A stretch of 64,000 bases of DNA. It comes from an endosymbiont of Escarpia spicata. Its GTDB lineage: Bacteria; Pseudomonadota; Gammaproteobacteria; Chromatiales; Chromatiaceae. Every line of letters starts with the position of its first letter. The stretch's first letter is position 1. The position numbers and the translations under genes are program-made. Shown here one piece after another: positions 5,894 to 60,453 of this stretch. The notes under the pieces are model-generated. The model had not been told where the DNA came from. It did not search any database and saw only the letters and a program-made list of their open reading frames with translations. The stretch lies in the NCBI GenBank assembly GCA_003349915.1, contig QFXE01000001.1, forward strand, positions 186,001 through 250,000, read 5' to 3'.

Positions 5894-5953
5894 GGATTTC
5901 TATTCTACGGCATCACAACCTGATCGGAAGCGGTTTAATACAAGGGGAATAAA

Positions 5954-7108: not shown

Positions 7109-7146
7109 CTTTGTCCGCCCCCTCAACCTCACTGCAGAAATCGACC

Positions 7147-8445: not shown

Positions 8446-8561
8446 TGTTTCAATCCGTATCTGTCGTTTGTCAGCTCATAATCTACTGAATTTCTGGTTT
8501 TTTTACGGAACAACCGCTATCATGCCCGGTTTTTTCACCTCCAGGTTTCCCTGTCCGATAG

Positions 8562-34086: not shown

Positions 34087-35598
34087 TTACTTCACTCCTG
34101 CCACCCATTGCTCGCTCGCCACCCGGGTCAGGTCGAGTACAGCATTAGGGTAGAGTCCTGCCGTGAGGATGAGTAGCCCCATGGCGCTTACCAGCAAAAG
34201 TTCACGGTGGCGTAGATCAATGGCTTCATCAACCACAGGAGAGGTGATGGGGCCTAGAAAGGTGCGTCGATAGATCGACAGGAAGTAACCCGCGCTCAGC
34301 ACGACCCCAAATAGCGCTGCCAGACCGGCCCCGGTGTGGGTCTCAAGGGCACTGACCAGTACCAGAAACTCTGCGGGAAAACCGTTGGTACCCGGAACCC
34401 CCATGCTGGCTAGACCAAAGAGGAAGAAGAACGTGGTTAACAGCGGCATTCGCTGGGCAACACCCCCCAGGCTGATGATGTCGGTGGAGCCGGTGCGGTG
34501 GTGCAGAAAACCGGTCAGGATGAAAAGGCCGCCAGCCACGATGGTGAAGTTCAACAGGTGGAACAGCGCACCCTGGATACCCTGGATATTCAATGAGGCG
34601 ATACCCAATATTACAAGCCCTACGTGACTGATGCTTGAGTAGGCGAGCATGCGCCGAAGGTTTGTCTGGGCAATGGCCATCACTGCGCCGTAGAGGATGC
34701 CGATGACACCAAGACCGGCAAGCAGCCAGTGAAAATCCTGTGCAGCAGCCGGTGCCATGGGCACAACAAAACGGATGATGCCGTAAGCGCCGAGTTTAAG
34801 ACCGGTCATCAGGGCTGCGATGGCTATGGGCCCCTCCATGGCTACCACCGGTAGCCATGTGTGGAAGGGAAATATCGGTGTCTTGAAGGCAAAGCCTGCC
34901 AGCAGCAGCAGGAAGATGATGGTCTGCATTTCAGCGGGCAGTGGCTGGCTGAGCAGGGCTTCCATGTCGAAGACCAGACCGCCGGGCAAGGTGGCTCCGG
35001 CAATCTCGGCATGATTGAAGGCGAGCAGCACGAATCCGAACAGCAGCGGTACGCCGCCAGCCATCATGAAGAGGGTATATTTCACCGCAGCATAACGGCG
35101 GTTTGCACCGGTTCCCCAGAAACTGATGAGAAAATAGAGCGGGATCAGCGTCAGTTCCCAGAAAAGGAAAAAAAGTATGGTGTCGAGAGAGACAAAAATG
35201 CCCAAGGTCGCGCTTTCCAGCAGCAACAGCAGTGTGTAGTAGAGTCGGGGCAGGGTGCGCACGCTGGTCCATGAGCTGATAATCACGCCAAGGAAGAGCA
35301 GCACGGTTAAAGGCAGGAACAGCACAGAAACGCCGTCCACGCCCACTTTGTAGTGGATGTTGAGAGACGGTATCCAGCTCGTCGTTTCGACAAACTGAAA
35401 GCCGCTCTGTGTCGCGTCAAAACCCAGAAGTATCAGGGTGGCGAGCACCAGGTCGACAAGTGCGGTCGCAAGTACCACCCAACGAGATCTTTCACTACCG
35501 GGAACCAGCCAGATCAAAGCTGCGCCGATCGGTAGCGAGAGGATCAGCAGGCTGATCAACGGAACGCCGTTTGTCAGTGCCTGGATTGTTTCAACCAT
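34087..35598 (-). CDS. NuoM-like antiporter subunit, last gene of the DAB-type cluster
   Basis: 503 aa, about 14 helices, proton-translocating quinone oxidoreductase/Mrp antiporter (proton_antipo_M) family. It keeps the glutamate in the fifth-helix motif FFLFWELTLIP (E148) and the discontinuous-helix lysine in FAFKTPIFPFHTWLP (K239), both needed for proton pathways in NuoM. It is not beside other nuo genes; it is the fifth gene of a five-gene operon containing DabA and DabB. I infer an ion-coupling role in that complex. Confidence 0.9.
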   Translation of the reverse strand: MVETIQALTNGVPLISLLILSLPIGAALIWLVPGSERSRWVVLATALVDLVLATLILLGFDATQSGFQFVETTSWIPSLNIHYKVGVDGVSVLFLPLTVLLFLGVIISSWTSVRTLPRLYYTLLLLLESATLGIFVSLDTILFFLFWELTLIPLYFLISFWGTGANRRYAAVKYTLFMMAGGVPLLFGFVLLAFNHAEIAGATLPGGLVFDMEALLSQPLPAEMQTIIFLLLLAGFAFKTPIFPFHTWLPVVAMEGPIAIAALMTGLKLGAYGIIRFVVPMAPAAAQDFHWLLAGLGVIGILYGAVMAIAQTNLRRMLAYSSISHVGLVILGIASLNIQGIQGALFHLLNFTIVAGGLFILTGFLHHRTGSTDIISLGGVAQRMPLLTTFFFLFGLASMGVPGTNGFPAEFLVLVSALETHTGAGLAALFGVVLSAGYFLSIYRRTFLGPITSPVVDEAIDLRHRELLLVSAMGLLILTAGLYPNAVLDLTRVASEQWVAGVK

Positions 35599-35646
35599 CG
35601 TTTCTCGATTCCAGTGTTGAGTGACTGATAGCCACCGATGAACAGT

Positions 35647-37167
35647 CTAAACGTGAGGCGTCGTGTAGAGCGCGCTCAGCCCTTCCAGAGATTTCTCGAT
35701 CAGGTCGAGCCAGGGTTCGGAGTAAAATCCGGCACCCAGCAGAACCAGAATCATTACGCCCGAGATGAGCAGTTCCGTCGATGTGGTCGGATCCACTTTG
35801 CGTACAGGTTGTGATTCATCCTGAGGCGCAAGAAAAGCGCGCTGGAATGCCCAGAGCAGGAAACCGGCAGCCACCACATTGCCCAGGGCAGCGGCAATGG
35901 TGATCAATGCGCCATAGCGGTGAATGGCACCCTCAAGCATCAGATGGGCCGCATCAAAGCCCGGGGTTCCCGGCATGCCGACAATGGAGAGTCCTGCTAT
36001 CAGAAATGTAATGCCTATTACCGGTATGCTGTCGAAGAGTCCGCCCAGGCGTGCCATCAATAGTGTATGGGTACGTCGATAGACGAAACCCTGCATAAAC
36101 AGCAGCGTTGTGATCGCCAGACCAAAATTGATCGACAGCATGACAGCGCCTTCAAAAGCCATTTGATTGAGACCGAATAGCCCGATCACCAGCACGCTGG
36201 TATGAGAGACCACGGCGAAGGCCAGCAGTCGGCGCAGGTTGACCTGTAGCATTGCCAGCAACGCGGCATAGAAGATACCCACAACGGCGATGGTAACGAT
36301 GAACTCATGCCACTGCATCACCGCCTCGGGCATTAGCGGCAATATAAAGCGCAGCATGCCGTAGATACCGATCTTGAGACCGATGAGAAAAACCGGGGCG
36401 GCAGCGACGGTGCCGTGTTCAGCGACCAAGGGAAGCCATCCGTGTAACGGAAATATCGGAACACGCACCGCCAGTCCGTAGAAAAAGAGGAAAAAGACCA
36501 CTGACTGAAAACCGGCTGAGACAGGCGCCTGGGCGAGTTCAAACAGATCGAAAGTCCAACGTCCCCCGGTTGCGTCTGCATGGTTCCAACCCAGGATGAC
36601 GATGCCGACCAGCAGTAACAGAATGCCGGTGCTCATGAATTGGTAGTAGCGGGTCTGGGCAAGTTCCGATTCAGGTGAGGTCGACCAGCGGGCGAGCAAA
36701 ATACCCACCAGCCCCAACTCCACAACAGATATCAGAACGAACCAGAGCAGGTCGACAGTGACGAACATACTCATCAGCGCCGCTTCCACCGCGAATACCA
36801 GGGATAGAAACCAGGCATGGGGCAGCAGTTGCCGCACCTGCCCGTAAATCACCATCAGCAATGTAATCAGTGCGGTGAGCAGGATAAATAGCACACTGAC
36901 GCCATCGACCGTGGCGTGGTAGGCGAGGGGACCAAACAGCTCAGCCCGCTCGGCAAACTGCATGGCGCCCTGATGGGTGTCGTAGTTAAGCCAGAGGTTG
37001 ATGGCCAGAAGCAGTTCCGCAACCGCGCCGGCAATACCAATCAAAGGCACCAGCCGGTTCTCCCGCATGGTCAGGATTGCCATCATTATGACCAGCGGCA
37101 GCAACTGCAGGGTGGTGAGGATTGGGTAGGACGACTGGGCGGTCCAGTGGATTTCGGTAATCATCAT
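35647..37167 (-). CDS. Divergent NuoM-like subunit of the DAB-type cluster
   Basis: 506 aa, about 14 helices. The antiporter fold is clear (VPIFPLHGWLP, FAVVSHTSVLVIGLF), but the helix-5 motif lacks the Trp (VVELGLVG, E150 kept) and the helix-7 lysine is replaced by arginine (R235, LAVRVPIFP). These changes suggest altered or lost proton transfer in this paralogue. It is the fourth gene of the operon, 10 bases after dabB and 48 bases before the last NuoM-like gene. Confidence 0.85.
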   Translation of the reverse strand: MMITEIHWTAQSSYPILTTLQLLPLVIMMAILTMRENRLVPLIGIAGAVAELLLAINLWLNYDTHQGAMQFAERAELFGPLAYHATVDGVSVLFILLTALITLLMVIYGQVRQLLPHAWFLSLVFAVEAALMSMFVTVDLLWFVLISVVELGLVGILLARWSTSPESELAQTRYYQFMSTGILLLLVGIVILGWNHADATGGRWTFDLFELAQAPVSAGFQSVVFFLFFYGLAVRVPIFPLHGWLPLVAEHGTVAAAPVFLIGLKIGIYGMLRFILPLMPEAVMQWHEFIVTIAVVGIFYAALLAMLQVNLRRLLAFAVVSHTSVLVIGLFGLNQMAFEGAVMLSINFGLAITTLLFMQGFVYRRTHTLLMARLGGLFDSIPVIGITFLIAGLSIVGMPGTPGFDAAHLMLEGAIHRYGALITIAAALGNVVAAGFLLWAFQRAFLAPQDESQPVRKVDPTTSTELLISGVMILVLLGAGFYSEPWLDLIEKSLEGLSALYTTPHV

Positions 37168-37177
37168 TCAGGACTCC

Positions 37178-38770
37178 TCAGATAATCACCGCAAAGGTGG
37201 CCATGATCAGCAGTAAAAGGTAACGAGGATGACTCAACAGTTCTTCGATCTTCTGCAACTGGCCACCTACACGTTGAATCATATTGATCAGTCCCTCGCC
37301 CCCACCTTTTAGCACCAGGTGCTCCTCGAACCAGTGTAGGAGAGAGGCGATACCTTCCATCAATTTCCCTGCCAATCCGTGGCCCAGCCCAACGTCGCCT
37401 TCAGCCAAAGCACGGTGTTCGCCTTTATGCCGCTCCCATTGCGCCAGCGAACTGATCGCGTCTGCCTGGGTTGGCAAGCCAACCAGCGGAATGATGACCT
37501 TGTCATCGAAATTCTGCGCGTCCTGAGCCAATTTTTTGGTGGGGCGCGTCAGCAGCCAATCGCCGATGGAGCCGAGCCAGAAGCGATTGACGGCGGCAGT
37601 ATAGAGCCAGCGGCGTCGACCCAGCCATGCCGGTACCGGCCGGGTGGGACGTGACATCAAGTGCATATGGGCTGGGGAACTGAGGAACTGATACGCGCGC
37701 CAGATCGCGTGGGCGGCCAGGTGCCAGGCTGCCAGGTCAAACAAGCCGAGGCCGCACTCCACGAACATCAGGCCCACCTGAGCGATGGTGGAGAAGATCA
37801 GCATGCTCTTTACATCTGTCTGCACCAATCCCGACAGATAGCCATAGAGCGCAGTAGTTGCTCCAAAAATAATGAGAAAAATCATCATCAATGGGGTCTG
37901 TTCAAAGACCGGCTGTAGCCGGATTACCAGGAACACGCCGGCATGCACCATCAGGCTGCCGTAAAATACCGCACTGGAGGGGGTTGGGCCTTCCAACGCG
38001 CGGGCGATCCAGGGCGAAAACGGCACTTGAGCAGATTTCACCAAAGCGGCGAGCAGGAATCCAAAGGCCAGAAGTTCGGCAGTCAGGGTCGACATTCCGG
38101 AGACACCGGAGAGGATGCCCGGCCACTCGACATCACCAATCCACGTCAGCGCAAGGAAGATCGCCAGGATAAAACCGGCATCGCCGATGCGGTTGGTGAC
38201 AAAGGCGCGAGTGGCGTTGTTGGTGGCGGTGGGGCGGTCGAGTGAATAACCGATCAGCAGGTAGGAACTGACGCCCGCCAACTCCCAACCAATAAACGCC
38301 ATGACTGCACTGCCGCTCATCACAATCAGCAGCATCGCCGACATGAAGAGGCAGAGGATCATGAAGAAACGCTGGAATCCCGCTTCACGATGCAGGTAGT
38401 TGACCGAGAAACGCAGGGTGATGAGCGAAATGGTTGCCACCAGAGTGGCCATGGATAGACCCAAGGCATCCAGTGTGAAGCTGATATTGATCTGGTAGTC
38501 GCCGCTGTTGAGCCACTCCGCTATGTGCACCTGTCCCGGCGCATGTCCGGTAAGCAGGGCATAGAGATCGAGCAGCAGAAGGCAGATCAGGGAGAGAAGA
38601 CTGGCGCCAAGCGCCACCCGTGCCGTGATTTTCTCGCCGGACTCGCCGCGGTTGCCCTCGTATGCATAGGAGAGACCAATCCAGCCGGCCGCCAGCAGGG
38701 GCAGCAGAGGTATCATCGGAATCAGTGCGAAGAGCGGGGCATACCAGACGGAGTGGCTGAATTCAGGCAT
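37178..38770 (-). CDS. dabB: DabB: NuoL-like membrane subunit of the inorganic carbon uptake complex
   Basis: 530 aa, NuoL/MrpA-related with about 13 helices. Proton-path residues are retained: E163 in AFIGWELAGVSSYLLIGY and K245 in LVKSAQVPFSPWIARALEG. The C-terminal ~130 residues, with loop segments and a last helix, are typical of NuoL-like DabB. It overlaps dabA by 8 bases, the two-gene unit seen in characterised DAB pumps that trap CO2/bicarbonate using membrane potential. Confidence 0.9.
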   Translation of the reverse strand: MPEFSHSVWYAPLFALIPMIPLLPLLAAGWIGLSYAYEGNRGESGEKITARVALGASLLSLICLLLLDLYALLTGHAPGQVHIAEWLNSGDYQINISFTLDALGLSMATLVATISLITLRFSVNYLHREAGFQRFFMILCLFMSAMLLIVMSGSAVMAFIGWELAGVSSYLLIGYSLDRPTATNNATRAFVTNRIGDAGFILAIFLALTWIGDVEWPGILSGVSGMSTLTAELLAFGFLLAALVKSAQVPFSPWIARALEGPTPSSAVFYGSLMVHAGVFLVIRLQPVFEQTPLMMIFLIIFGATTALYGYLSGLVQTDVKSMLIFSTIAQVGLMFVECGLGLFDLAAWHLAAHAIWRAYQFLSSPAHMHLMSRPTRPVPAWLGRRRWLYTAAVNRFWLGSIGDWLLTRPTKKLAQDAQNFDDKVIIPLVGLPTQADAISSLAQWERHKGEHRALAEGDVGLGHGLAGKLMEGIASLLHWFEEHLVLKGGGEGLINMIQRVGGQLQKIEELLSHPRYLLLLIMATFAVII

Positions 38771-41700
38771 GACGGGTTCCTCCGGGTTGTTCCAGCAATA
38801 CTGGCGTCAGAGGCTCCATGTGCCCCGCGTACCAGTCGGCGGAGTCTTTCACTGTCGGCAGTTCGTTGATCTGGCCCTCCCAAAGCACCCAGCCTCGATC
38901 GGGGTAGAAGACATCGATTCGGTCGCTGTCAGGGTCTTTGGCGCTGAGTAGCAACCAACCTTTACCCACCAACTCCTGTAGCGGGGGCTGTCGCATATAG
39001 ATCTCAGTCAGCAGATCGATCTTCTGCTCCACGATGACCTGTAGACGCATCGCCTCGTGGATTTCGATCATCTGCCGTGGCAGGCCGGTGCGCAGGTCGG
39101 AGCTGGCCCCCTCCATGACGCCGAAGAGGCCGGTGATGTTGTGGGTTACCTTGGAACCACAACCGTACTCGTCGTTGTTCACGGTGGAGAAGTAATACTC
39201 CAGACTGATGCCCGCGCCCACCGGGCCATTGGCCAACAGCAGACGTTCGATGATCTCACCACTGGGATCAATGGTGGGGTCATAGGAGATGAGAAAGGCC
39301 CGGCGATCGAAGAAGGCACCCTGGGTAATGGAGCGGCGGCCGATGAATGCGCAGGCGTTGGTGGCGTGGCCCAGTTCGGGGCGCGCCTGGCTGAAATCGT
39401 TACCACGTCCCTGGATATGGGCAAGCGCCTGCTTCAGGTTGGGTTGTTTCGGGGCGGAGAAAAATTTACGGCAGCGTTCATGAGCTGAATGACGGCTGGC
39501 TTCGTCCACATTTCTCTGGATAACCGAGAGAATCTGCTGATGGGACTTTGGCACCTTGTCCATATCGAGCCAGTCGAAGCGCTCATCGCAGGTGTTGTGG
39601 AAGGCGCCGATGAACCAACTGTTCTTGGGAATGTTGATTCCCCGTTGAGACAGGATCTCTCTGATCTCCGGGCGATTGGCGATGGCGGCGAGAATACGCG
39701 CATTGGGACCGGAGTGACGGCCGCTGCAGGCGCCGCAGTCGTAGGCGGCGCGGTGTGGATTGTTCTCGCTGCTGGAGCCGTGGCCCATAATGATGGGCAG
39801 TGGTGAGAAGCCATCCACCAAACCGATGTTTTGTAGAAATGTCTCTACCCGGTCGGCCTGTTCCTCATCCGAGAAACCGAGACGGTTGTGTTCGATCGTA
39901 CCTTCGGGTGCATCTGCCGCTGCGGTGACGGCAATGTCGGTCTGCACGGCGGTTTCGTAAGTATCACGCAGTTTGGCAGAGAGTTTGCCAACCTTTAGCG
40001 GCGCCAACACCTTGGCTACCAGAATCCCGAGAGTGGCGGGGGCGGCCAGCGCGATCAGTGCGGTCGATCCCAGCAGGTTGCGGCGGGTCTCCTGCATCAG
40101 GAGATCTTTCAGCCAAAGCCGTTTCTTGTGCCGTTTATGGCGCTGATTTGCCTGAGTTTCCGCGCCGGGATGTACTGTTTCCCTGATCTCGTGTGCCGGC
40201 ACCATGACCACCGGACAGAGTCCGGAAATATTCTCGTCGGTGAGTCCTCGCCAATTGTGCGGGACGTTGTAGTGGGCAGCAGCACCGAAGGTTTCAATGG
40301 CGGGATTGATGACTTCCAGGTGGCGACGGATGCCCTCTTCACGATCGTCCATGCACCAGACTATTTGTGCGGCGGGTGTGGTTTCACGGCTCTTCCAGCG
40401 GCCCCGTCCCTCATTGTTGACGATCGCGTTGAAGATCTGCTCGCGGTAGTTGCGCTCGTAGGCCTGCAGCCAGAGGAAACTTTGGGTATCGGGAGTGAGG
40501 CGTTGCAGGCAATCAAAGAGTGTTTTTACGCCCTGTTCGCCGAGGTTAACGATATCCTGCCCGATGAGTCCCAGATGCTGGCTCAGACGAAAGAGCTGCC
40601 AGGCACTGCCGTAGACCGAATATCCGCTTGGGCGGTCTGAGGCGGGGCTTTGACGCCATGTCCAGATCATATCAGCCAGCTGACGCCACTGGGGATAGTC
40701 ATCGCTGGGTGTGGGTGTCTGCAGTTCAAGTTGTTGCGCACGGCTGACGAGATATTCCGGCAGTCGATTGTTGTGCAGACTGTGGCGCACCATGAACTCG
40801 GAGCGGCGTCTTCGAAAGTACCAGCGCAGCATGTCCAGGTTGGGTGCGATCTGCCACTGTTGATCGCACAGCCGCTGGGCGAAAAGGCGTTCCATCACCA
40901 AACGTACCGCGAGGTAATCCAGCATCTCCACGGAGACATCGTGAGAGCCTTCGTAGCCGGGGTGATTGTGGCGATAGAAAAACATGCCGGACCAGCCTGG
41001 CAGTTCCAGGGCGAGTCTTTCCAGATAGGATTCCCAACATTCCTTGGGCAGCCCCATGCGCTGCAGTTCTGAGAGCACGGCCTCCATAGGGTCTTCGTCG
41101 AGAATTGCGATCTCGTCCTGCCACTCCGGCATCTCGCTGAAGAAGCCGGTCAGAGAGACGGCGACGCTGCGGCGCCAAGTGGTGTAAAAGCCTGTCTCAC
41201 GCTCGGGGAATTGCCATGCCGCCTGACCCTGGTCGAGAAAACTGGCGATGAAACGGATGAGCAGTGGACGGATCTCATCAAGCAGATCCTTACCGGTCAC
41301 TTCAAGCAACAGGCCACGCAGGGTGATTTCCGGTCCTACCCGCGATAGCGTCCGGTCGAGTTGCTTGGCTGATTCTTTTCGCACCCGGTAGTGAACGCTG
41401 CTGAAGCTGTCGTCCTCAATGGTCAGGGTGTGCAACATACGCTCCGCCTGCTCTGGAGAGAGATCAACCAGCTCCTCCGGGTGCATGTGGAACTCCTCCA
41501 GACCGAGGGTTTCGAGGCAGGTGGTCCAGAGATCGGAGATGGCGGCCTTTTCGTCGCTCAGACCCTGCTCGGCGGCGGCTTCGAGAATATGCTTGCGGGT
41601 GTTTTTGTCGACATCGGACTGAAAACGTTGCAGGACATCCAACTCCTCGATCTGCCAGCTGAACTGACAGGCGGTAATTGTCTTCAGGGGGTGGAGCAGT

Positions 41701-42059
41701 GCGACAATGGCGACATCACGGCAGGTCAGAACGCCGTCGATATTCTCCAGCAGGATCTCGTCGGGCTCCAGTGCTGGGGTCTCATCGATGACGGCCCGCA
41801 GATCTTCCAGGGAGATACGCCCCTCAGCGTAGAATTCCCGGAAACGCTCATCCGGCAGGTAGCCCCTTGCGCCAGTGATGCGTTCCGCCTCGGCCAGTGC
41901 CTCGGTGAATTCCAGATGCTGGAAGCCGTGCAGCGTGTTGTGGTGGACGAAGTCCTTGATCGGCGCCTGTCCAGGCAGTACATGCTCGAAGTGCTCGATA
42001 ACATGGTGCAGGCGGCTGCGAATATCGGCGGAATCTGTCTCATGGCTGGCGGCGGACAA
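38763..42059 (-). CDS. dabA: DabA (DUF2309, UPF0753): large carbonic-anhydrase-like subunit
   Basis: 1098 aa, well above the ~830 aa of Halothiobacillus DabA. The expected beta-carbonic-anhydrase-like zinc site is visible: C569 and D571 in WCMDDREEG, then H760 (MGHGSSSENNPH) and C775 (YDCGACSG). The spacings C+2 to D and H+15 to C equal those in characterised DabA (C351/D353, H524/C539). DabA hydrates CO2 vectorially with DabB. Upstream and downstream NuoM-like genes are spaced 18 and 8 or less bases. The extra ~270 residues suggest contacts with these additional subunits. Confidence 0.93.
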   Translation of the reverse strand: MSAASHETDSADIRSRLHHVIEHFEHVLPGQAPIKDFVHHNTLHGFQHLEFTEALAEAERITGARGYLPDERFREFYAEGRISLEDLRAVIDETPALEPDEILLENIDGVLTCRDVAIVALLHPLKTITACQFSWQIEELDVLQRFQSDVDKNTRKHILEAAAEQGLSDEKAAISDLWTTCLETLGLEEFHMHPEELVDLSPEQAERMLHTLTIEDDSFSSVHYRVRKESAKQLDRTLSRVGPEITLRGLLLEVTGKDLLDEIRPLLIRFIASFLDQGQAAWQFPERETGFYTTWRRSVAVSLTGFFSEMPEWQDEIAILDEDPMEAVLSELQRMGLPKECWESYLERLALELPGWSGMFFYRHNHPGYEGSHDVSVEMLDYLAVRLVMERLFAQRLCDQQWQIAPNLDMLRWYFRRRRSEFMVRHSLHNNRLPEYLVSRAQQLELQTPTPSDDYPQWRQLADMIWTWRQSPASDRPSGYSVYGSAWQLFRLSQHLGLIGQDIVNLGEQGVKTLFDCLQRLTPDTQSFLWLQAYERNYREQIFNAIVNNEGRGRWKSRETTPAAQIVWCMDDREEGIRRHLEVINPAIETFGAAAHYNVPHNWRGLTDENISGLCPVVMVPAHEIRETVHPGAETQANQRHKRHKKRLWLKDLLMQETRRNLLGSTALIALAAPATLGILVAKVLAPLKVGKLSAKLRDTYETAVQTDIAVTAAADAPEGTIEHNRLGFSDEEQADRVETFLQNIGLVDGFSPLPIIMGHGSSSENNPHRAAYDCGACSGRHSGPNARILAAIANRPEIREILSQRGINIPKNSWFIGAFHNTCDERFDWLDMDKVPKSHQQILSVIQRNVDEASRHSAHERCRKFFSAPKQPNLKQALAHIQGRGNDFSQARPELGHATNACAFIGRRSITQGAFFDRRAFLISYDPTIDPSGEIIERLLLANGPVGAGISLEYYFSTVNNDEYGCGSKVTHNITGLFGVMEGASSDLRTGLPRQMIEIHEAMRLQVIVEQKIDLLTEIYMRQPPLQELVGKGWLLLSAKDPDSDRIDVFYPDRGWVLWEGQINELPTVKDSADWYAGHMEPLTPVLLEQPGGTRHA

Positions 42060-42077
42060 AGTTTTCTCCTCGCTTGA

Positions 42078-43547
42078 TTACAGATGGGCCGCGAAGGTGG
42101 CGCTCAACTGGGTGATGGAGGCGGACACAAGCTCCAGTGCCGGAGCCGGGAAGACGCCCAATAACACAATGCCGCCAGTCAACACGATGGCGGCCGCCAT
42201 CTCGCTGGGCCGCAGGTCAGCGATATCCTGCATCTCCTTCCGAACAGGCCCGGTGAAGAGACGTCCGATAGTGCGTATCGCATAGGCAGCGCTGATCAAT
42301 ACGCCCAGAGTCAGCAGTACCACCAGCCAGCCCCAACGTTCGAAACCGCCAATCAGGACGTGCAGTTCGGCGATAAAACCAAAAGTACCGGGCAGGCCGA
42401 CTGCGCCGATAAAAGCAATTGTGGTGAAGAAGGCAAAGCGTGGTGCTACCCGAAGCAGAGAGCTGTAGTCGTTGATGTTGCGCGTGTGGGTGCGTTCATA
42501 GAGCAGTCCGATCAGCAGGAACATGGCGCCTGCCACCAATCCATGTGCCATCATCTGCATGACCGCTCCGGTCAGACCGGCGAAATTGAGGGTCGCGATG
42601 CCCAGCAATACCACTCCCATGTGGCTGACCGAAGAGTAGGCGATCATCCGCTTCAGATCCCATTGCCGCCAAGCCAACAGACCACCGTAGACCAGACTTA
42701 CCAACGCGATGGCAACCAGTACCCCCTGCAGGGAGATGACGGCATCGGGCAGGGTCTGTGCGGCACGAATAAGACCGTAGGACCCCATCTTCAACAGGAT
42801 GCCGGAGAGCAGGATGCTGATAGGACTCGGTGCCTCGACGTGGGCCAGCGGCAACCAGCCGTGGATCGGAAAGATCGGCATCTTGACCCCGAAACCGATG
42901 AGAAAACCCAAAAAGATCAGGACCTGTTTCTGTTCGGAAATCAGGTGTGCGCCGGCGCGCATCTGATCCATGGCAAAGGAGTGGCCCGGCAGGGTGTCGA
43001 AAAGCACCAGCAGGCTAAGCAGCATAAAGACCGACCCGCCCAGGGTGTAGAGCACGAAATTGAGTGCCGCACCCTGACGATTTTTTCCTCCCCAGCGATC
43101 GATGAGGAAGAAGAGCGGGATCAGAGTCAGCTCCCAGAAGACATAGAATAGCGACCAGTCCTGGGCCATGAATACACCGAGCATGGCGGATTCCAGCACC
43201 AACACCAGTATGTAGTAGCCTTTCACCTGCTTGGTGATGCTGGCCGAAGCAGCCAGGGCGACCAGACTGAGCAGGGTTGCCAGCAGGATCATGGAGAGGG
43301 AGATACCGTCAATGCCGACGGCATATGATGTGCCGAGGCGCGGGTTCCAGGGTACAACCTCCATGAATTGCAGATCTGCAAGGGAGTTGTCAAAGCCGGC
43401 GAATAATCGCCAGGAGAGCAGCAAGGCGATGGCGGAGCCGAAGAGCGCGACTCCCCGGATCAGACGTTGATTCTGCCCAGGAAGCAGGGCGATAAGCACT
43501 GCTGTGGCGACAGGTGTAATCAGTAGTTGAGTGAGCGAACCCATCAC
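42078..43547 (-). CDS. NuoM-like antiporter subunit, first gene of the DAB-type cluster
   Basis: 489 aa, about 14 helices, with all canonical NuoM features: E139 in FYVFWELTLIPLFF, K222 in FGVKMPIFPIHGWLPLAHVEAPSPISILLS-type region, and YSSVSHMGVV. It is the first gene of the minus-strand operon, 18 bases before dabA. The 282-base gap upstream (43548-43829) must hold the promoter; I see no clear sigma-70 boxes. Confidence 0.9.
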   Translation of the reverse strand: MMGSLTQLLITPVATAVLIALLPGQNQRLIRGVALFGSAIALLLSWRLFAGFDNSLADLQFMEVVPWNPRLGTSYAVGIDGISLSMILLATLLSLVALAASASITKQVKGYYILVLVLESAMLGVFMAQDWSLFYVFWELTLIPLFFLIDRWGGKNRQGAALNFVLYTLGGSVFMLLSLLVLFDTLPGHSFAMDQMRAGAHLISEQKQVLIFLGFLIGFGVKMPIFPIHGWLPLAHVEAPSPISILLSGILLKMGSYGLIRAAQTLPDAVISLQGVLVAIALVSLVYGGLLAWRQWDLKRMIAYSSVSHMGVVLLGIATLNFAGLTGAVMQMMAHGLVAGAMFLLIGLLYERTHTRNINDYSSLLRVAPRFAFFTTIAFIGAVGLPGTFGFIAELHVLIGGFERWGWLVVLLTLGVLISAAYAIRTIGRLFTGPVRKEMQDIADLRPSEMAAAIVLTGGIVLLGVFPAPALELVSASITQLSATFAAHL

Positions 43548-43829: not shown

Positions 43830-44369
43830 TTATTCGCGCTTCTGATGATCCAGAGAATGAAGCAACGACTGCACCAGGATGGATACGTCCTGTCTGACTC
43901 TGGCATCCACTTCGAAAAGTGGGATATTTCGCGTCTGGTCATTCAATAATGACTGGTATTCGTTCAATCTGGGGGTAGTGGAGATATCCATCCGGGTAAC
44001 ACCGATAGCGACCCGGGTACGCTGGATGAAGTCTCCGAATCGCTGCAGAAAAAACTGCATGTCTTCCAGAGGGTCGGGGCGGGCATTGTCCACCAGCAGG
44101 ACCAGGCCCATGCCACCCTGAATCAGGATGTCCCACATGAAGTCGAAACGTTCTTGACCGGGAGTCCCATAGAGATGCACCCGCTTGCTGTCCATCATGT
44201 TGATGATGCCGTAATCCATTGCGACTGTGGTGGTGTTTTTACGATAGCGAAGTTCGTCCGTGGAGGATTCATTGGTGGAAACGGTATCAGTATCACTGAT
44301 GGCGTTGATCGCAGTGGTTTTGCCTGCCCCCACCGGCCCTGTAAAGATGATTTTGAGGTCTTTTTTCAT
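43830..44369 (-). CDS. Small Ras-like (MglA-type/COG2229) GTPase
   Basis: 179 aa. G1 loop TGPVGAGKTTAI (residues ~11-22), G3 region YGTPGQERFDFMW (Gly-Gln at the switch), G4 TRMD. Members of this group act in polarity, type IV pilus and gliding control, often with Roadblock-type or receiver-type partners. Its ATG overlaps the stop of the frameshifted partner gene (ATGA), so the two are co-translated. Confidence 0.88.
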   Translation of the reverse strand: MKKDLKIIFTGPVGAGKTTAINAISDTDTVSTNESSTDELRYRKNTTTVAMDYGIINMMDSKRVHLYGTPGQERFDFMWDILIQGGMGLVLLVDNARPDPLEDMQFFLQRFGDFIQRTRVAIGVTRMDISTTPRLNEYQSLLNDQTRNIPLFEVDARVRQDVSILVQSLLHSLDHQKRE

Positions 44370-45558
44370 CCGTTTTTACTGCGGAAAAATGGTATCCAGT
44401 TGCTGAGCCAACTGGCAGATGCCGGCTGTTTTTCCCCTGCATCGGCAGCAATCGGGATATAGTCGAGGGTCTTCATCGTCTCTCCTGTATTTGCCAGCCC
44501 CAAGGCAAAAACTGCGCTGTAGAAGCCGAAAACATAGCGCTGCGGGATTTTTAGTTTTGCAGCCGTTTCGATAAGCGAGTGAGGTTGTTCTGCCCAGAGT
44601 GCGGCAATCTCAAGGGTGTTGGGTAATAACAACAGACGCGTCAGGTTTGGCCAGCGATCCAGGGCAACCGATCTATGGAGATCGGTATCGTAGGGGATAC
44701 GGCCCTGCGAGGCCCAAAGTGCTGTTTTCCACATGAGAGCGTCGAGGCGCATAAATGAATCAGCAGCCCCATCATCCGGTGAGAAGAGATCATCGCAAAA
44801 AGTGAATGAGAGACCACCTGGTGATATGGGGGCAGCGGAGAGAGCCCCTAACCTGGATTCGCTCATATTGATCTGAGCCATCTCTTCGTCGGGATAGAGG
44901 ATAATGAATTCTTCATTGGAAAACTGCAGTCGCACTGCCTGCCCCTTTTGTTTCATCATGGCAGTGATTTGGCGTAGTTTTCCCTGGAGAAAACTATCCG
45001 GATCGTAGCGGATATTGGCCTGTTGTTGGGCACTATTCGTATCGATATCCGGGGTTGATCCCAGAAATGCCTGGAGATCCTTTTCCGCAAGGTGGCGGGC
45101 GATCTGATAGCCTGCGCTGGTGGGAGGCACTCCCGCCATGACGACATCGTCACCACTCTCTTCAGCAGGCGCGACTGGCGCTGATGCAATTTGCAGGCTG
45201 GGCAGGGTTGATGAGAGATTCTGCGGGTCTTTCGCTTGAGATTCAGCCTTTTTGCAAGACTGCGTTTTTTCAGTGGTTTGAGCAGGCTTATGAGGCTGCC
45301 TGTCTCCCGTGGTTCCTGGGAGATCACTATGACCGGTGTGGCGGGGTGAAGCTGTTGCTGCTCCCGTGCCAGTCTTACCCCTTTTTTATGGTCGAGATCG
45401 ATGATGACGGCGTCTGCTGCCTCCTCTTCCACCAGTTGAAATCGATCCTTGCAGGATTCGTGGAAAAATAGGCGCAGACTATTTCTTATACGATCATCGA
45501 CGCCTAAAGCTGCGACGCGAACGGGTGGAGCTTCTATGGTTGTTTCACTTGCCTGCAT
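44366..45558 (-). pseudogene. Receiver-like two-part partner of the GTPase, frameshifted
   Basis: The N-terminal frame (start 45558) gives a degenerate receiver-like domain (VAALGVDDRIRNSLRLFF, VIIDLDHKKG, VIVISQEPRETGS). Around 45250-45270 the reading frame must shift by one base to continue into a second part of about 290 residues (ASAPVAPAEESGDDVV into VPPTSAGYQIARHL) that ends at 44366. An A5 run (+ strand T at 45249-45253) and an A6 run (45265-45270) are the candidate sites; one extra A would restore one protein of about 397 aa. It may be a sequencing indel or true inactivation. The C-terminal part has no family I recognise. Confidence 0.7.
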
Positions 45559-53135: not shown

Positions 53136-53759
53136 TCAGATGCGCTGCTGTTCCCTGAGGACCTTGACCTGGAAGAGGGTGTTACGTTCCTCCTCCTCAA
53201 GGGTGTTTTCAATGAAGCGGATAGTGTTCTGGTATCGCGGAATAATGTTGTATTTCAATGCGTTAACCCGCTTTTGTGCCTTAAGTTGTTCTGAAATCAG
53301 ACGCCCCAGACTCATCTCGGCCTCCCCCAGTTTGGCCAACAATAGTGCGGTTTCCGCAAAATGTAACCGGGTTTCGTCAAAGCTGGGATCGGTGCCTAGC
53401 AGGCCGACGGGCTTCAGTGGGCGCAGTTTCGCGGTGACGGATGGGAACTCCACGCCGAGATTGCGTCTCGGCAGGATCTTCATATCCAACACAGGTTCGA
53501 TACCCAACGCAGCCTGGAGCAGCGCGCGATTGCCCATACGAAGTTGCGCCAGACTCAGCCAGTGATAAGCCAGTTTGATAGCGCCGTGAGCTTGGGTACG
53601 GAGTTTTCTGTATTCGTTCAGGCGTGAATAGACCAGTCGGGTCAGTAGCTCGCGTTTGCGCTCCAGCAGGCTATGACCCTCATCCAGAAAACGCAGCTGC
53701 CGTTTCAGGTTGAGTAACGTGTTTTTGGTCGGTGGGGCCTTGATAAGTTGGGCCGTCAT
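53136..53759 (-). CDS. V/A-type ATPase subunit D (central stalk)
   Basis: 207 aa, two long helices typical of the central rotor shaft: LNLKRQLRFLDEGHSLLERKRELL at the start and QKRVNALKYNIIPRYQNTIRFIE at the end. Its start overlaps the subunit B stop (ATGA). It is the last gene of the operon; a 119-base gap separates it from the FimX-like gene. Confidence 0.93.
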   Translation of the reverse strand: MTAQLIKAPPTKNTLLNLKRQLRFLDEGHSLLERKRELLTRLVYSRLNEYRKLRTQAHGAIKLAYHWLSLAQLRMGNRALLQAALGIEPVLDMKILPRRNLGVEFPSVTAKLRPLKPVGLLGTDPSFDETRLHFAETALLLAKLGEAEMSLGRLISEQLKAQKRVNALKYNIIPRYQNTIRFIENTLEEEERNTLFQVKVLREQQRI

Positions 53760-55174
53760 GCCAAGGGTTCCTTCTGCTCAGGCTGCTGGAGTTCGCTGCC
53801 GGCATGACGGTGGTATTTGGCCATTTCCGTCTCGGTGACACGGGTCAGGGCTGTTGTCGGCAGCAGGGAGAGCAGCTCCCAGGCCAGATTCAGGGTCTCC
53901 ACAATGCTGCGGTCTTCATCTTCGCCCTGAGCCACGAAACGTTTCTCGAATGCGTCGGCAAATTCGAGATAACGCTGGTCCCTGGCAGAGAGTTCATCCG
54001 CACCGATGATGGAGGCCAGGTTGCGGGTCTCCAATGCCCTGGCATAGAGAGCATAGAGCTGATTCGAGACGTGGGGGTGATCCTCCCGGGTGAAGTCCTT
54101 GCCGATGCCGTCCTTCATCAGGCGGGAGAGCGAGGGTGAGATATGTACCGGCGGATAGACCCCCTGGTTGTGCAGTTCCCGGCTCAACACAATCTGCCCT
54201 TCGGTGATGTATCCGGTGAGGTCGGGGATCGGATGGGTGATGTCGTCACTGGGCATCGACAGTACCGGCACCAGAGTGATCGATCCGTGGCGGTCCTTGA
54301 TCCGGCCGGAACGCTCGTAGATCTCCGTCAAGTCGGAATAGAGATAGCCGGGATAGCCCTTGCGCGCAGGTACATCGCCTTTGGCGGTGGCCACTTCCCG
54401 CAACGCTTCCGCGTAGTGGGTCATGTCGGTCATGACAACCAGCACATGGCGGTCGAGGTCGAAGGCCAGGTATTCTGCGGCGGTGAGCGCCATGCGTGGA
54501 AGAGTGAGCCGTTCAACCGGCGGGTCGTCAGCCATATTGATGAACATCACCACGTTGCCGAGCACACCGGAGGAGGCGAACTCCTCCTGGAAGAAACGGG
54601 CGTCGGAGTAGGAGACGCCCATCGCCGCGAAAACGATGGAGAAGTGACTCTCTTCATCCGGTAGTTTGGCCTGCCGCACGATCTGGGCGGCAAGCCTGTT
54701 GTGAGGCAATCCCGAGGCGGAGAAGATCGGCAGTTTCTGCCCCCGCACCAGGGAATTAAGGCCGTCGATGGTGGAGATGCCGGTCTGGATGAATTCTTTG
54801 GGATAGGTGCGCGCCGCCGGGTTGAAGGCGTTGGCATTGATGCCCCGGTGCAGACGGGAGACCACGGGCGGGCGACCGTCTTTGGGTTCCCCCAGTCCGT
54901 CGAAGACGCGTCCCAGGATCTCAGGAGAGAGACTGATCTCCAAAGGTGTGTCCAGAAAACGCACCCATGTGCTCTCCAGATCGAGGTGGTCGGTTCCCTC
55001 GAAAACCTGTATCAATACCTCTATGCTCGAACTTCGAATGACCTGGCCATTGCGCTTCCTGCCCTGGCTGTCCCGGACCTCCACCCGGTCGCCGAAGGCG
55101 ATGCCCGGAACCTGGCTGACGGTCAGTAGTCCTCCCTGGGCAGAGGAGACGGTGCGGTACTCCTTGGCGCTCAT
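53756..55174 (-). CDS. V/A-type ATPase subunit B (regulatory)
   Basis: 472 aa. It matches the non-catalytic B subunit: EYRTVSSAQGGLL, FARTYPKEFIQTGISTIDGLNSL-type region with FSASGLPHNRLAAQI in place of a Walker A loop, VVMTDMTHYAEALREV, and GYPGYLYSDLTEIYERSGR. It alternates with subunit A in the A3B3 head. It overlaps A and D by ATGA junctions. Confidence 0.96.
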   Translation of the reverse strand: MSAKEYRTVSSAQGGLLTVSQVPGIAFGDRVEVRDSQGRKRNGQVIRSSSIEVLIQVFEGTDHLDLESTWVRFLDTPLEISLSPEILGRVFDGLGEPKDGRPPVVSRLHRGINANAFNPAARTYPKEFIQTGISTIDGLNSLVRGQKLPIFSASGLPHNRLAAQIVRQAKLPDEESHFSIVFAAMGVSYSDARFFQEEFASSGVLGNVVMFINMADDPPVERLTLPRMALTAAEYLAFDLDRHVLVVMTDMTHYAEALREVATAKGDVPARKGYPGYLYSDLTEIYERSGRIKDRHGSITLVPVLSMPSDDITHPIPDLTGYITEGQIVLSRELHNQGVYPPVHISPSLSRLMKDGIGKDFTREDHPHVSNQLYALYARALETRNLASIIGADELSARDQRYLEFADAFEKRFVAQGEDEDRSIVETLNLAWELLSLLPTTALTRVTETEMAKYHRHAGSELQQPEQKEPLA

Positions 55175-56961
55175 GATGTCTGCTCCCCACGCTGAGCGTA
55201 TTCGGACCGGATGGATTCAAAGCTTTTGATGGCCTGTTCGCGGAATGCCCGCAGCTGATCCAGCTGGTCGGAGTCGTAGACCTCTTTGCAGCGGCGTAAC
55301 TTGGCCAGAATCGGCAGATTGCTCAACTCCTGCACCGGGACACCCAGTTCGATCAGGTCGGCGCCCTGGTCATAGATGGTGAGAAGTGTATCCAGCAGGA
55401 GGAACTGTTTCTCTGGAGAGGAGAAGGTATCCACAGGATCGAGCGCGCTCTGCTGCAGCACCCCCTCTTTGATCAGGGCGGCGCCCTCCAATATCCAGCG
55501 CTGGGCGGAAGAGAGCGCCTCCGGTCCCACCAGGTTGACGATGCGGGAGAGTTCCGCATCCCTGGCGAGCATGCTCAGAGCCTGCCCCCGGCGCTTTTCC
55601 CAATTCCGGTCGACCTGTTCGTGCCACCAGGCGGCGGCGGTAGAGACATCCGCTGAGAAGCTGTCGACCCAGTCGATTGCCGGATAGTGGCGGGCATCCG
55701 CCAGCTCCTTGGAGAGCGCCCAGAAGGTCTGGATGATCTCTTTGGTGTGGCTGGTGACCGGTTCTGAAAAGTCGCCGCCGGGTGGCGACACCGCACCGAT
55801 CAGGCTCACTGAACCCTTGCCGCAGTCGTGGGTTTCGACCCGTCCCGCCCGTTCGTAGAACGCGGAGAGACGGGAGGCGAGATAGGCCGGATAACCCTCT
55901 TCTACGGGCATCTGTCCCAAACGTCCTGAGACCTCCCGCAGAGCCTCGGCCCAACGGCTGGTGGAGTCTGCCAGCATCACCACGTCATGCCCCTGGTCAC
56001 GATAGTATTCGGCAATGGTGATGCCGACGTAGATGGACGCCTCGCGGGCCACCACCGGCATGTTGGAGGTATTTGCCACCAACAGGGTGCGTTCCATCAG
56101 GGAACGCCCGGTGTAGGGGTCTTTGAGATCGGGGAAGCTGTCGAGTACATCGACCAGCTCGTTACCACGTTCACCGCAGCCGACATAGATGACGATATCC
56201 GCGTTTGACCAGCGTGCCACCTGGTGCTGCACCATGGTTTTACCGGCGCCGAAGGGACCGGGCACGGCGCCCTTGCCGCCTTTCAAGAGGGGGAAGAAGG
56301 TATCGAGGATACGCTGGCCGGTGATCAGGGGTTCGGAGCTGTGATCCCGGTGCTGATAGGGACGGGGCTGGCGCACCGGCCAGCGATGGAAGAGTTTGAG
56401 TCTGCGTATCTCTCCATTCGCTGTTTTTACCTGGGCAATGGTCTGATCGAGGCTGTAGTCCCCCTGTGGAGCGATTTCAATCAGTTCACCGCTGACATCC
56501 GGCGGCACCAGGATGCGATGCAGCACCGACTCGGTCTCCTGTACGCTGCCCAGCTGGATGCCGCCACTGACTTGCGTGTTGGGTTCCAGGGATTCCGTCG
56601 GTGTGAAGGTCCATTGAGACTCCCGGTCCAGCGAGTCCGGACTCAGCCCTCTTGGAATCTGATCACCCGCCTGCAGAAACATCTTTTCAAGTGGACGCTG
56701 CACCCCGTCAAAGATACCGCCCATCAGGCCGGGTCCAAGTTCCACTGAGAGGGGATGGCTCAGCCCCTCTACCGGCTCGCCGGGACGCACCATCTCAGTG
56801 GATTCATAGATCTGTACCAGAGCCTCGCTGCCCTGCAGGGAGATCACCTCGCCATAGAGACCCAACTCTCCGATCTTGACCTGTTCCCCGTTGGCCACGC
56901 CAGGCAGGATGATGGTCACTATGGGACCGTTGATGTCTTTGATTATGCCCTTTTTTGTCAT
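55171..56961 (-). CDS. V/A-type ATPase catalytic subunit A
   Basis: 596 aa from the ATG at 56961 (MTKKGIIKDINGPIV); the frame extends to 57036 but that part overlaps the subunit E end. Walker A GPFGAGKT is at residues 235-242, followed by the GCGERGNE motif, the catalytic-site region LADSTSRWAEALRE and the non-homologous insert typical of V/A-type A subunits. It binds and hydrolyses or makes ATP. Length fits the bacterial A-type (~580-600 aa). Confidence 0.97.
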   Translation of the reverse strand: MTKKGIIKDINGPIVTIILPGVANGEQVKIGELGLYGEVISLQGSEALVQIYESTEMVRPGEPVEGLSHPLSVELGPGLMGGIFDGVQRPLEKMFLQAGDQIPRGLSPDSLDRESQWTFTPTESLEPNTQVSGGIQLGSVQETESVLHRILVPPDVSGELIEIAPQGDYSLDQTIAQVKTANGEIRRLKLFHRWPVRQPRPYQHRDHSSEPLITGQRILDTFFPLLKGGKGAVPGPFGAGKTMVQHQVARWSNADIVIYVGCGERGNELVDVLDSFPDLKDPYTGRSLMERTLLVANTSNMPVVAREASIYVGITIAEYYRDQGHDVVMLADSTSRWAEALREVSGRLGQMPVEEGYPAYLASRLSAFYERAGRVETHDCGKGSVSLIGAVSPPGGDFSEPVTSHTKEIIQTFWALSKELADARHYPAIDWVDSFSADVSTAAAWWHEQVDRNWEKRRGQALSMLARDAELSRIVNLVGPEALSSAQRWILEGAALIKEGVLQQSALDPVDTFSSPEKQFLLLDTLLTIYDQGADLIELGVPVQELSNLPILAKLRRCKEVYDSDQLDQLRAFREQAIKSFESIRSEYAQRGEQTS

Positions 56962-56992
56962 CTTGTTTTTCCGCTGTGGATCAGCATGATTT

Positions 56993-57625
56993 CTAGAGCG
57001 ACATGTCGCTGCGGGGTGGGGGCAACAGGCGCTCAACGATCACTTGGTAGAGTCGATCTTCGAGCCGCTCCAGACGTCCTTCGAAGGTTTGATCCAGCCT
57101 GATAAGGTTGTCTGAAGTACGGATGCGAAGTCCTCCAATCGTCTGGATGGGGTCTTCAGCCAGAAGAAGGTGTTTACCTGGCGCGGCAGCACCGGCAAAT
57201 GTCTCCCAGTCACTCTGCAGCCGTCGCTGGTCGTTTGCATTTAGCTCCACAAGCAGCGTATCGGCTTCTATCTTCTCCGCGCCTTTGCTGAGATAGGCCT
57301 GTAGCAGGGCGAAGTATCGGGTTTTATCCTTAGCCAACTCCATCATGCGGGCGGGCAGCCGTTCGATCACAGTCTGTACCAGATTCCAACGTAGATGATC
57401 CATGCGGCTGTGAAGTTTAAGCTCGTCGGCTTGTACCTTGCGCCGATAGGTACGATCCGCCATCGCCTTGGCCAGTAGCGTCTCCTTCTCTTCCCGCAGT
57501 TGGAGTCGTTCACTGGCATCACGCAGGATCACATCACGACCCACCCTGGCGCGGTCGTGGCACTCGTCGGCCATCGACTCAGCACGTTTTAGGATCGTCT
57601 GAGCCAGTTCGTCAACCTGATTCAC
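56993..57625 (-). CDS. V/A-type ATPase subunit E (peripheral stalk)
   Basis: 210 aa: a long charged N-terminal helix (about 1-80) and a globular C terminus with GGLRIRTSDNLIRLDQTFEGRLERL, the pattern of the E subunit. It overlaps subunit F by ATGA and is 31 bases before subunit A. Confidence 0.88.
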   Translation of the reverse strand: MNQVDELAQTILKRAESMADECHDRARVGRDVILRDASERLQLREEKETLLAKAMADRTYRRKVQADELKLHSRMDHLRWNLVQTVIERLPARMMELAKDKTRYFALLQAYLSKGAEKIEADTLLVELNANDQRRLQSDWETFAGAAAPGKHLLLAEDPIQTIGGLRIRTSDNLIRLDQTFEGRLERLEDRLYQVIVERLLPPPRSDMSL

Positions 57626-57969
57626 AATTGGGCTCCTTCTTCACTATCTTCACCAATCAGCATGGAGAGTTGCGGGTCGATGCTGCATTGATAACAGTTG
57701 GGATCATCCAGTGAGGGTACTTCCGAAAGTACGATCCTGCCGCCCTCGTTGCGTATCTGCCGGATGAGTTTTGAATCGAGCTTTTCCAGTGAGTGGTCGA
57801 TGACGATGAAGGCATGCTGCTGTTCGCTGAGTAATTCACTGAATAGCTGATCGACCTCCTGCAGGCTCGGATCCGGGCGGGTTTCAAAACCGATGAGTCT
57901 GAACCCATTGGCGATTGAGGTGCTGCCCATGAAGATCAGACGGGTCTGTTGCTGGGTCTCGTTGGACAT
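57622..57969 (-). CDS. V/A-type ATPase subunit F
   Basis: 115 aa: FMGSTSIANGFRLIGFETRP and FIVIDHSLEKLD fit the F subunit (CheY-like fold on the central stalk), followed by a short acidic tail. Seven bases after subunit K's stop. Confidence 0.9.
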   Translation of the reverse strand: MSNETQQQTRLIFMGSTSIANGFRLIGFETRPDPSLQEVDQLFSELLSEQQHAFIVIDHSLEKLDSKLIRQIRNEGGRIVLSEVPSLDDPNCYQCSIDPQLSMLIGEDSEEGAQL

Positions 57970-57976
57970 GGATAAC

Positions 57977-58414
57977 TCAGAGTTTGTCCAGCAGCAGGAT
58001 ACTCATGACCAGACCGTAGATGGCGATGCCCTCGGCCAGACCCAGATAGATCAGCGTACGTCCGAATATCTCGGGTTTTTCCGCCAGCACCGCCAGGGAG
58101 GCAGCGCCTATGGGGCCTACCGCGATGCCTGCGCCGACGGTACTCAATGCGGTCGGAATACCCATGCCGATGATACCCAGTCCAAGACCGATAGAGATCT
58201 CGCCACTGCTCTCAGCTACTGCCGGTGCGGCCATGACTTCCTGCACGCCAAAAAAGAGCAGGGTAGCCTGGCCGACGATAAATAACAGTAGATTGAGACC
58301 GATAGTGGGTTTGAACCAGCGTCTATTGATGGCAGCAGGTTTGATTTCCATCACCACGCCGGTGGCGATGATGCCCACAATGCCCAAGGTCATCAGGGTA
58401 ATCAGCCAGTACAT
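57977..58414 (-). CDS. V/A-type ATPase rotor ring subunit K (c)
   Basis: 145 aa with four hydrophobic segments. The first two (about 3-24, 40-62) are an extra hairpin; the second hairpin has GMGIPTALSTVGAGIAVG and the ion-binding carboxylate in LAEGIAIYGLVMS. Only one carboxylate is present per four helices. The residue next to the Glu is Gly rather than Ser/Thr, and no paired Gln is seen, which favours protons over sodium, but the ligand set is not certain. 39 bases after subunit I. Confidence 0.88.
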   Translation of the reverse strand: MYWLITLMTLGIVGIIATGVVMEIKPAAINRRWFKPTIGLNLLLFIVGQATLLFFGVQEVMAAPAVAESSGEISIGLGLGIIGMGIPTALSTVGAGIAVGPIGAASLAVLAEKPEIFGRTLIYLGLAEGIAIYGLVMSILLLDKL

Positions 58415-58453
58415 GTCATGCTCCTTTGTTTGAGTAGTGGAAGCGTCGCAGGT

Positions 58454-60313: not shown

Positions 60314-60453
60314 CGGCAGAGTGCTAAACATGATAGGGATCACTCTGACGTTGTTTCATGCAGCTTCCTGGAGAGCGGGAGGCATGAGTGCCTCATGAAC
60401 CAGTTCACTATCCAAACCGAGCAGTTTCCCCTGGAGCAGAGCATTAAGGCGTT

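Follow-up and report, generated by a model that had tools for sequence, protein, structure and literature searches.

The DNA analyzed here, referred to as the window, is a 64,000-nucleotide stretch of contig QFXE01000001.1 (positions 186,001 to 250,000 of the forward strand; assembly GCA_003349915.1) from the endosymbiont of the tubeworm Escarpia spicata, and it carries on its minus strand a five-gene operon in which DabA and its NuoL-like partner DabB are accompanied by three NuoM-like antiporter-type subunits, NM1, NM2 and NM3. We consider it rather probable that this operon represents a third type of DAB system, a five-subunit, membrane-potential-driven complex that would hydrate CO2 and whose ion path would run through the NuoM-like subunits. 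The genes read NM1-DabA-DabB-NM2-NM3 with spacings of 18, −8, 10 and 48 bp between the open reading frames (ORFs; Table 1), an order and a set of names that an initial annotation had given from the letters of the window and that ORF calls, Pfam and NCBIfam matches now bear out. The arrangement lies far beyond chance, because all five genes occur together in 36 of 140 DabA loci, their order is kept in 43 of 43 five-gene loci, and each gene shows a ratio of nonsynonymous to synonymous substitution rates (dN/dS) of 0.03 to 0.16 against three congeners.

The DabA family (PF10070) is present in 18 of 38 relatives, 83 of 369 genomes of the class and 56 of 299 genomes of the phylum, one of the 56 under cut-off. 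Around a subset of all matches 140 stretches were retrieved, and a locus was assigned to the five-gene type if every one of the five window proteins was matched there at over 300 bits; this rule yields 36 complete loci, 10 partial ones and 94 of other kinds, 81 of the last group showing DabB-DabA only. Six of the partial loci end at contig ends (L032, L033, L038, L101, L102 and L106), and the remainder comprise L078, with DabA and a DabB::NM2 fusion, L094, with NM1-DabA alone, and L058 and L077, which are of other kinds. Together with six loci from named records and the window itself this gives 43 five-gene loci, from 38 distinct genomes, a Nitrospirota among them, once five duplicates are dropped, and in all 43 the genes lie on one strand in identical order. 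The five-gene order is an old, conserved unit, and the co-occurrence in relatives on which the initial annotation had staked its reading beforehand is found across symbionts and other genomes. The nearest named DabAs are those of Lamellibrachia and Escarpia tubeworm endosymbionts (94-96% identity), followed by Candidatus Sedimenticola endophacoides (56%) and the Nitrospirota Candidatus Magnetocorallium paracelense (53%), while a tblastn search with DabA against plasmids returned no place covering 80% of the protein. Apparent losses of DabB or NM2 at L131 and L161 proved to be an effect of the overlap filter in GC-rich DNA, the gene order being confirmed there, and an apparent NM1::DabA fusion at L070 was rejected, NM1 being a separate, overlapping ORF. 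Between the five proteins, pairwise distances across 33 loci correlate with coefficients of 0.78-0.90, as common descent alone can also produce.

The zinc site of DabA is intact: all five of its residues (Table 1) are present in 145 of 145 aligned DabAs and match those of DabA2 in the alignment to 9rd0, the sole PDB relative of the window DabA by sequence. The window has the marks of a DAB pump, namely a PF10070 protein with the zinc-site Cys, Asp, His and Cys and, overlapping it by 8 bp, an adjoining PF00361 gene (DabB), but departs from the DAB2 type in having Ala at the DabA finger position, an acidic residue at the transmembrane helix 5 (TM5) position of DabB, and more than two genes. Glu occupies the finger position in 87 of 92 DabAs from other loci and in none of the 43 five-gene ones, which have Ala (22, including the window), Leu (10), Val (5), Thr (2), Phe (2), Met (1) or Asp (1) instead; L108, L115, L118, L133 and L142, the only loci of the other group to lack this Glu, all belong to the wider five-gene-type DabA clade, L118 on a long branch that makes its placement less sure. 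Asp stands at this position in the basal relatives L058, L101, L078 and L070, which suggests a history of the finger residue from Glu through Asp to none. The equivalent of NuoL TM5 Glu144, by contrast, is Glu in 34 of 34 five-gene DabBs and in only 2 of 85 others (nine near-duplicate or awkward loci of the 43 were excluded, and nine other loci gave no usable row), and these two, from L108 and L118, are again loci without finger Glu; TM5 Glu is also found in the basal relatives L058, L078 and L101. Crossing the two positions over 118 loci gives 82 with Glu at the finger alone and 36 with Glu in TM5 alone, and no locus has both or neither. All 34 five-gene DabBs retain the Arg175 and Asp178 partners (Arg in 74 and Asp in 67 of the 85 others), and the TM7 Lys does not discriminate, the other DabBs having Lys (42), Arg (33), Gln (8) or Ala (2). 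According to excerpts of PMC13144422, replacement of finger residue Glu444 in DabA2 abolishes DAB2 activity and introduction of Glu at the TM5 position of DabB2 (I151E) halves growth yield, so that each of the changes carried by the five-gene clade harms DAB2.

All three NuoM-like subunits score above the NCBIfam NuoM subfamily cut-off of 264 bits (490, 311 and 468 bits for NM1, NM2 and NM3). NM1 has Glu in TM5, Lys in TM7, Lys in TM8 and Glu in TM12 in 34 of 34 loci, and NM3 has the same quartet, with the TM12 Glu in 32 of the 34. In NM2 the TM5 position is without Glu, being mostly Val, Leu, Ala or Gly with Gln (20 loci), Glu (9), His (4) or Asp (1) two residues on; Arg replaces the TM7 Lys, the TM8 Lys is kept, and TM12 has no acid but an invariant adjoining His, both Arg and His occurring in 34 of 34 loci. 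With the quartet full in NM1 and NM3 and altered in NM2, the former two look like working ion channels and the latter like a changed relay. The initial annotation had envisaged an array resembling the membrane arm of complex I, and this much stands in that the residues fit, the order is conserved and one genus fuses DabB to NM2; a reading as four equal pumps, however, is not supported, since NM2 has neither Glu in TM5 nor Glu/Lys in TM12 and DabB apparently lacks the helices from TM12 onward, leaving the full NuoM proton quartet in NM1 and NM3 only. The high capacity and the coupling to Na+ that the initial annotation also envisaged are conjectural.

DabB itself appears to be shortened. Its match to NuoL is confined to residues 16-373 and, at 272 bits, falls under the NCBIfam NuoL cut-off of 407.5; by alignment and a simple hydropathy scan it ends after about TM11 and is followed by one last hydrophobic helix. 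Residues ~379-444 align to the NuoL C-terminal region (hhalign E 6.5e-5, probability 64%, against 0.2% for other DabBs), which suggests, short of proof, that DabB keeps the lateral helix of NuoL and loses TM12-15. Its nearest PDB chains are of the NuoL/NdhF/ND5 kind (best 199 bits), with the DabB2 chain 9rd0_B lower at 120 bits. At L078, DabB and NM2 form one continuous protein of 1045 aa with both halves intact, and in a second genome of the same genus (L238) the DabB::NM2 ORF continues uninterrupted for 837 aa until the retrieved stretch ends. A further, apparent DabB-NM2 fusion, at L025 in Candidatus Sedimenticola endophacoides, was rejected as a frameshift effect, residues ~381-522 reading like out-of-frame DabB. 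At that locus (4962-9844) DabB and NM3 both look frameshifted, as pseudogenes or through assembly errors.

A DabA tree was built from 88 rows, in which the other loci are represented by every second row plus five chosen ones (FastTree supports). The five-gene DabAs there fall in one 43-row clade (support 100), which also takes in 5 partial loci and, as 4 exceptions, L108, L115, L133 and L142; L058 is its sister (91). Among 108 antiporter-type proteins, for which 12 rows each of NM1, NM2, NM3 and DabB were sampled (FastTree supports), NM1, NM2 and NM3 are each monophyletic (100, 100 and 99), NM2 and NM3 are sisters (97) and NM1 stands beside NuoM (90), while the five-gene-type DabBs form one clade (94) that groups with NuoL (94), apart from the other DabBs. 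As a separate observation, DabA overlaps its upstream gene by 4 bp at L133 and L142 (genomes G528 and G532), and the upstream gene at L133 has CheW and response-regulator domains.

Table 1. Genes of the DabA operon in the window, listed in reading order.
Gene and product	Position in window	Strand	Pfam match and key residues
NM1, NuoM-like antiporter-type subunit, 489 aa	42078-43547	minus	PF00361, 232 bits; NuoM quartet E139, K222, K253, E394
DabA, 1098 aa	38763-42059	minus	PF10070, 783 bits, residues 21-1036; zinc-site C569, D571, R573, H760, C775; A670 at finger position
DabB, NuoL-like, 530 aa	37178-38770	minus	PF00361, 141 bits; E163, R194, D197, K245 kept; TM12-15 apparently missing
NM2, divergent NuoM-like subunit, 506 aa	35647-37167	minus	PF00361, 127 bits; quartet positions V148, R235, K265, A407 (H408 adjoining)
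NM3, NuoM-like subunit, 503 aa	34087-35598	minus	PF00361, 225 bits; NuoM quartet E148, K239, K268, E410

The five-gene operon and its conservation, the residue patterns and the DabB::NM2 fusion are observed; from them we infer a complex, and with it an activity, an ion, a direction and a stoichiometry, along the following lines. DabA, with its intact zinc site, would hydrate CO2 to bicarbonate in the cytoplasm while seated on a shortened NuoL-type DabB in which the inner (cytoplasmic) half-channel is present and the outer half apparently absent. The outer half of the DAB2 proton path, formed by the finger Glu and DabB TM12-13, seems to be gone, the TM5 Glu with its ion pairs is kept instead, and the elements that lateral coupling of the complex I type calls for are there. 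A proton or another ion would cross the membrane in NM1 and NM3, and its movement there would be coupled to DabA through a chain of charged residues running along DabB and NM2, in the manner of the complex I membrane arm. The membrane potential would drive the process by drawing ions inward, and CO2 would be trapped as bicarbonate for carbon fixation. We put forward more tentatively, as somewhat short of probable, the broader proposal of a distinct class of vectorial carbonic anhydrase with a long-range, complex-I-like charge relay through several NuoM-like channels and possibly more than one ion per CO2, which would have evolved by placement of DabA on a complex-I/Mrp-type arm, with the coupling carboxylate moved from the DabA finger (Glu, Asp, none) to the antiporter subunits.

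Markers of carbon fixation were surveyed in 41 genomes of the wider clade, G095 having been included by mistake. RuBisCO was found in all 18 gammaproteobacterial genomes of the five-gene type, as a fragment in G001, but neither in the two basal gammaproteobacteria G073 and G090 nor in any of the 21 genomes from outside the class, G528 and G532 among the latter having DabA only; the class baseline is 187 of 369. The citrate-binding domain of ATP-citrate lyase is present in 22 of the 41 (6 gammaproteobacteria and 16 of the 21 outside the class), against a baseline of 5 in the class sample of 369, 3 of those 5 being of the five-gene type, although the matches are weak (55-76 bits, cut-off 26.8). 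One or the other marker occurs in 34 of the 41 genomes, all of these being plain counts uncorrected for kinship. Fisher tests on the two markers were set aside, their groups having been chosen post hoc, with G073 absent from the RuBisCO test and G090, G220 and the remoter members of the clade G092, G096 and G269 absent from both.

Several points weigh against a five-subunit, potential-driven complex. One proton per CO2 already permits strong trapping on general thermodynamic grounds, so that extra pumps are unneeded for the gradient alone. The swap of finger Glu for TM5 Glu is a single split of the DabA tree, one evolutionary event rather than 118, and the DabB::NM2 fusion is likewise a single event in one genus. 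Furthermore, L118 has the residue swap yet carries just DabA and DabB within its stretch, and at L115, L133 and L142 a clade-type DabA is found with no antiporter-type gene within the stretch, which together count against a strict need for NM genes nearby. The hhalign probability for the DabB C-terminus goes no higher than the value given above, AlphaFold models of DabA and of the apparent L025 fusion reach a mean predicted local distance difference test score of only 39.7 and 39.8, and the scanned neighbors in the window are unrelated to carbon fixation.

The alternative that survives best, though we judge it unlikely, is that two machines share one operon: a DabA-DabB CO2 hydrator and a separate, Mrp-like cation/proton antiporter of NM1, NM2 and NM3 that works in its support, for instance in pH handling or in building up a Na+ gradient that a bicarbonate transporter of the SulP family would use. 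Among 34 five-gene loci, 7 indeed have a same-strand SulP gene as the immediate upstream neighbor of NM1 and 2 more have one elsewhere in the stretch, and of the 94 other loci 7 have one anywhere in it; none was found near the window operon. DabA-DabB also stands without NM genes in the stretch at L118, and in the sister lineage L058 DabA is flanked by a SulP gene on one side and a complete Mrp set on the other (G047:C1, 774-12681), in the order SulP, DabA, MrpE, MrpF-like ORF, MrpG, DUF4040, MrpB, MrpC, MrpD, NuoL/MrpA-like and NuoM, where B, C, E and G are assigned by Pfam and F by place and size; a DabA-Mrp system is possible there. In the five-gene operon, however, MrpB, C, E, F and G are absent and, with no gap above 48 bp, there is no room for them; DabB is fused to NM2 in one genus; and a pair in which DabB apparently lacks TM12-15 and DabA lacks the finger Glu has no visible outer half-channel of its own.

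Much less probable is operation in reverse, in which an exergonic DabA reaction would power ion export by the NuoM-like pumps, as excerpts of the 2017 COGNAT paper (PMC5700660) propose and as the full quartets of NM1 and NM3 would allow. The zinc-site residues are identical to those of CO2-hydrating DabAs, general thermodynamics makes the energy of CO2 hydration too small for exporting several protons unless bicarbonate is far below equilibrium, and the presence of RuBisCO in 18 of 20 gammaproteobacterial clade members tested fits uptake of dissolved inorganic carbon (DIC). Least credible of all is an ordinary DAB whose NuoM-like neighbors are decaying or surplus pieces of complex I that take no part in CO2 uptake. 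NM2 has indeed lost quartet residues, and Candidatus Sedimenticola endophacoides has apparent frameshifts in DabB and NM3, but the dN/dS range given above holds for all five genes, NuoL/M/N and 49-kDa genes exist separately on another contig of the genome, and the altered NM2 residues (the TM7 Arg and the His beside the TM12 site) are themselves fixed in 34 of 34 loci.

The symbiont genome holds a single DabA, and its NuoL/M/N and 49-kDa genes lie on contig C15, so that the four antiporter-type genes of the operon are extra. A second antiporter-type gene pair is found on contig C18 near a relative of the 49-kDa gene, and this stretch (G000:C18:324747-331283) may encode a group 4 hydrogenase-type complex. 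Of the 75 window ORFs of at least 150 aa, 30 were scanned with Pfam, and these include neither NADH and quinone modules of complex I nor NuoH/J/K. Directly upstream of NM1 and on its strand, positions 43830-45139 code for a small GTPase-like protein and for a protein of 257 aa that has no Pfam match, and ~10 kb from the operon, again on its strand, lie A/V-type ATPase genes (53756-61398; two alpha/beta-type subunits, I and C/AC39). A promoter and terminator scan yielded nothing usable.

The association of NuoM with DabA, and the core idea, are not new, as the COGNAT study is already in print: its excerpts (PMC5700660) place ybcC/DabA upstream of a NuoL homolog, often with NuoM and sulfate-permease genes, and propose that the number of subunits may set the number of ions. 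The COG3002 "clade C" operons described there are very probably the same group as the five-gene operon, and the account, in these excerpts, names the pattern without residue analysis, subunit families or a CO2 function. In the literature searched, as far as its passages extend, we found neither the residue swap, the split between NM1/NM3 and NM2, the shortened DabB or the fusion, nor a paper on a DabA-Mrp operon like that of L058, and among the DUF2309/COG3002 papers found only the COGNAT passages describe NuoM neighbors. No paper was found that contains DabA and NuoM together as whole words, a wording that PMC13144422 escapes by writing DabA2; the passages of PMC13399641 only mention MpsA and COG3002, and term searches of the tubeworm-symbiont papers PMC11636981, PMC7787665 and PMC12045306 gave no passage on the five-gene operon.

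The closest characterized relative is DAB2 of Halothiobacillus neapolitanus (9rd0), which shares the DabA family with its zinc-site residues and an antiporter-like, NuoL-related DabB. As excerpts of PMC13144422 describe it, DAB2 has two subunits, the finger Glu444, Ile in TM5, a DabB of 15 TMs and full activity without sodium, whereas the five-gene operon has five subunits, no finger Glu, a TM5 Glu and a DabB apparently without TM12-15, with DabA and DabB in the opposite order to that of the DAB2-like loci retrieved; these differences suggest that DAB2 results should not be transferred to the five-gene type. The same organism's DAB1 is a three-subunit system with a small membrane protein (excerpts of PMC13144422), so the initial annotation's statement that characterized DAB pumps consist of DabA and DabB only holds for DAB2 and fails for DAB1. 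DAB1-type loci, assigned from gene order only (DabB, middle gene, long DabA), resemble the window operon in their long DabA and DIC role but have a middle-gene-sized gap in place of NuoM-like genes, the finger Glu, and an insert after the finger that the window DabA lacks, its own extra length lying before and between the catalytic parts.

The complex I membrane arm and Mrp share with the operon the NuoM-like quartets, the NuoL-type TM5 ion pairs and the C-terminal stretch, while redox subunits, NuoH/J/K and MrpB/C/E/F/G are all missing from it. A functional analog is offered by the NDH-1MS and NDH-1MS' complexes, which hydrate CO2 on a complex-I-type membrane arm but are driven by ferredoxin oxidation and consist of a complex I core and Cup proteins, with DabA no part of them. 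Excerpts of PMC13144422 mention these cyanobacterial vectorial carbonic anhydrase complexes. If our reading is right, the five-gene operon adds a third DAB type that is widespread and occurs in deep-sea tubeworm symbionts too; most of the genomes with it have RuBisCO or, by a less reliable marker, ATP-citrate lyase. How complex I couples its chemistry to distant ion movement over a long range is still debated, and the same kind of subunit working on redox-free CO2 hydration would provide a direct test system for that coupling.

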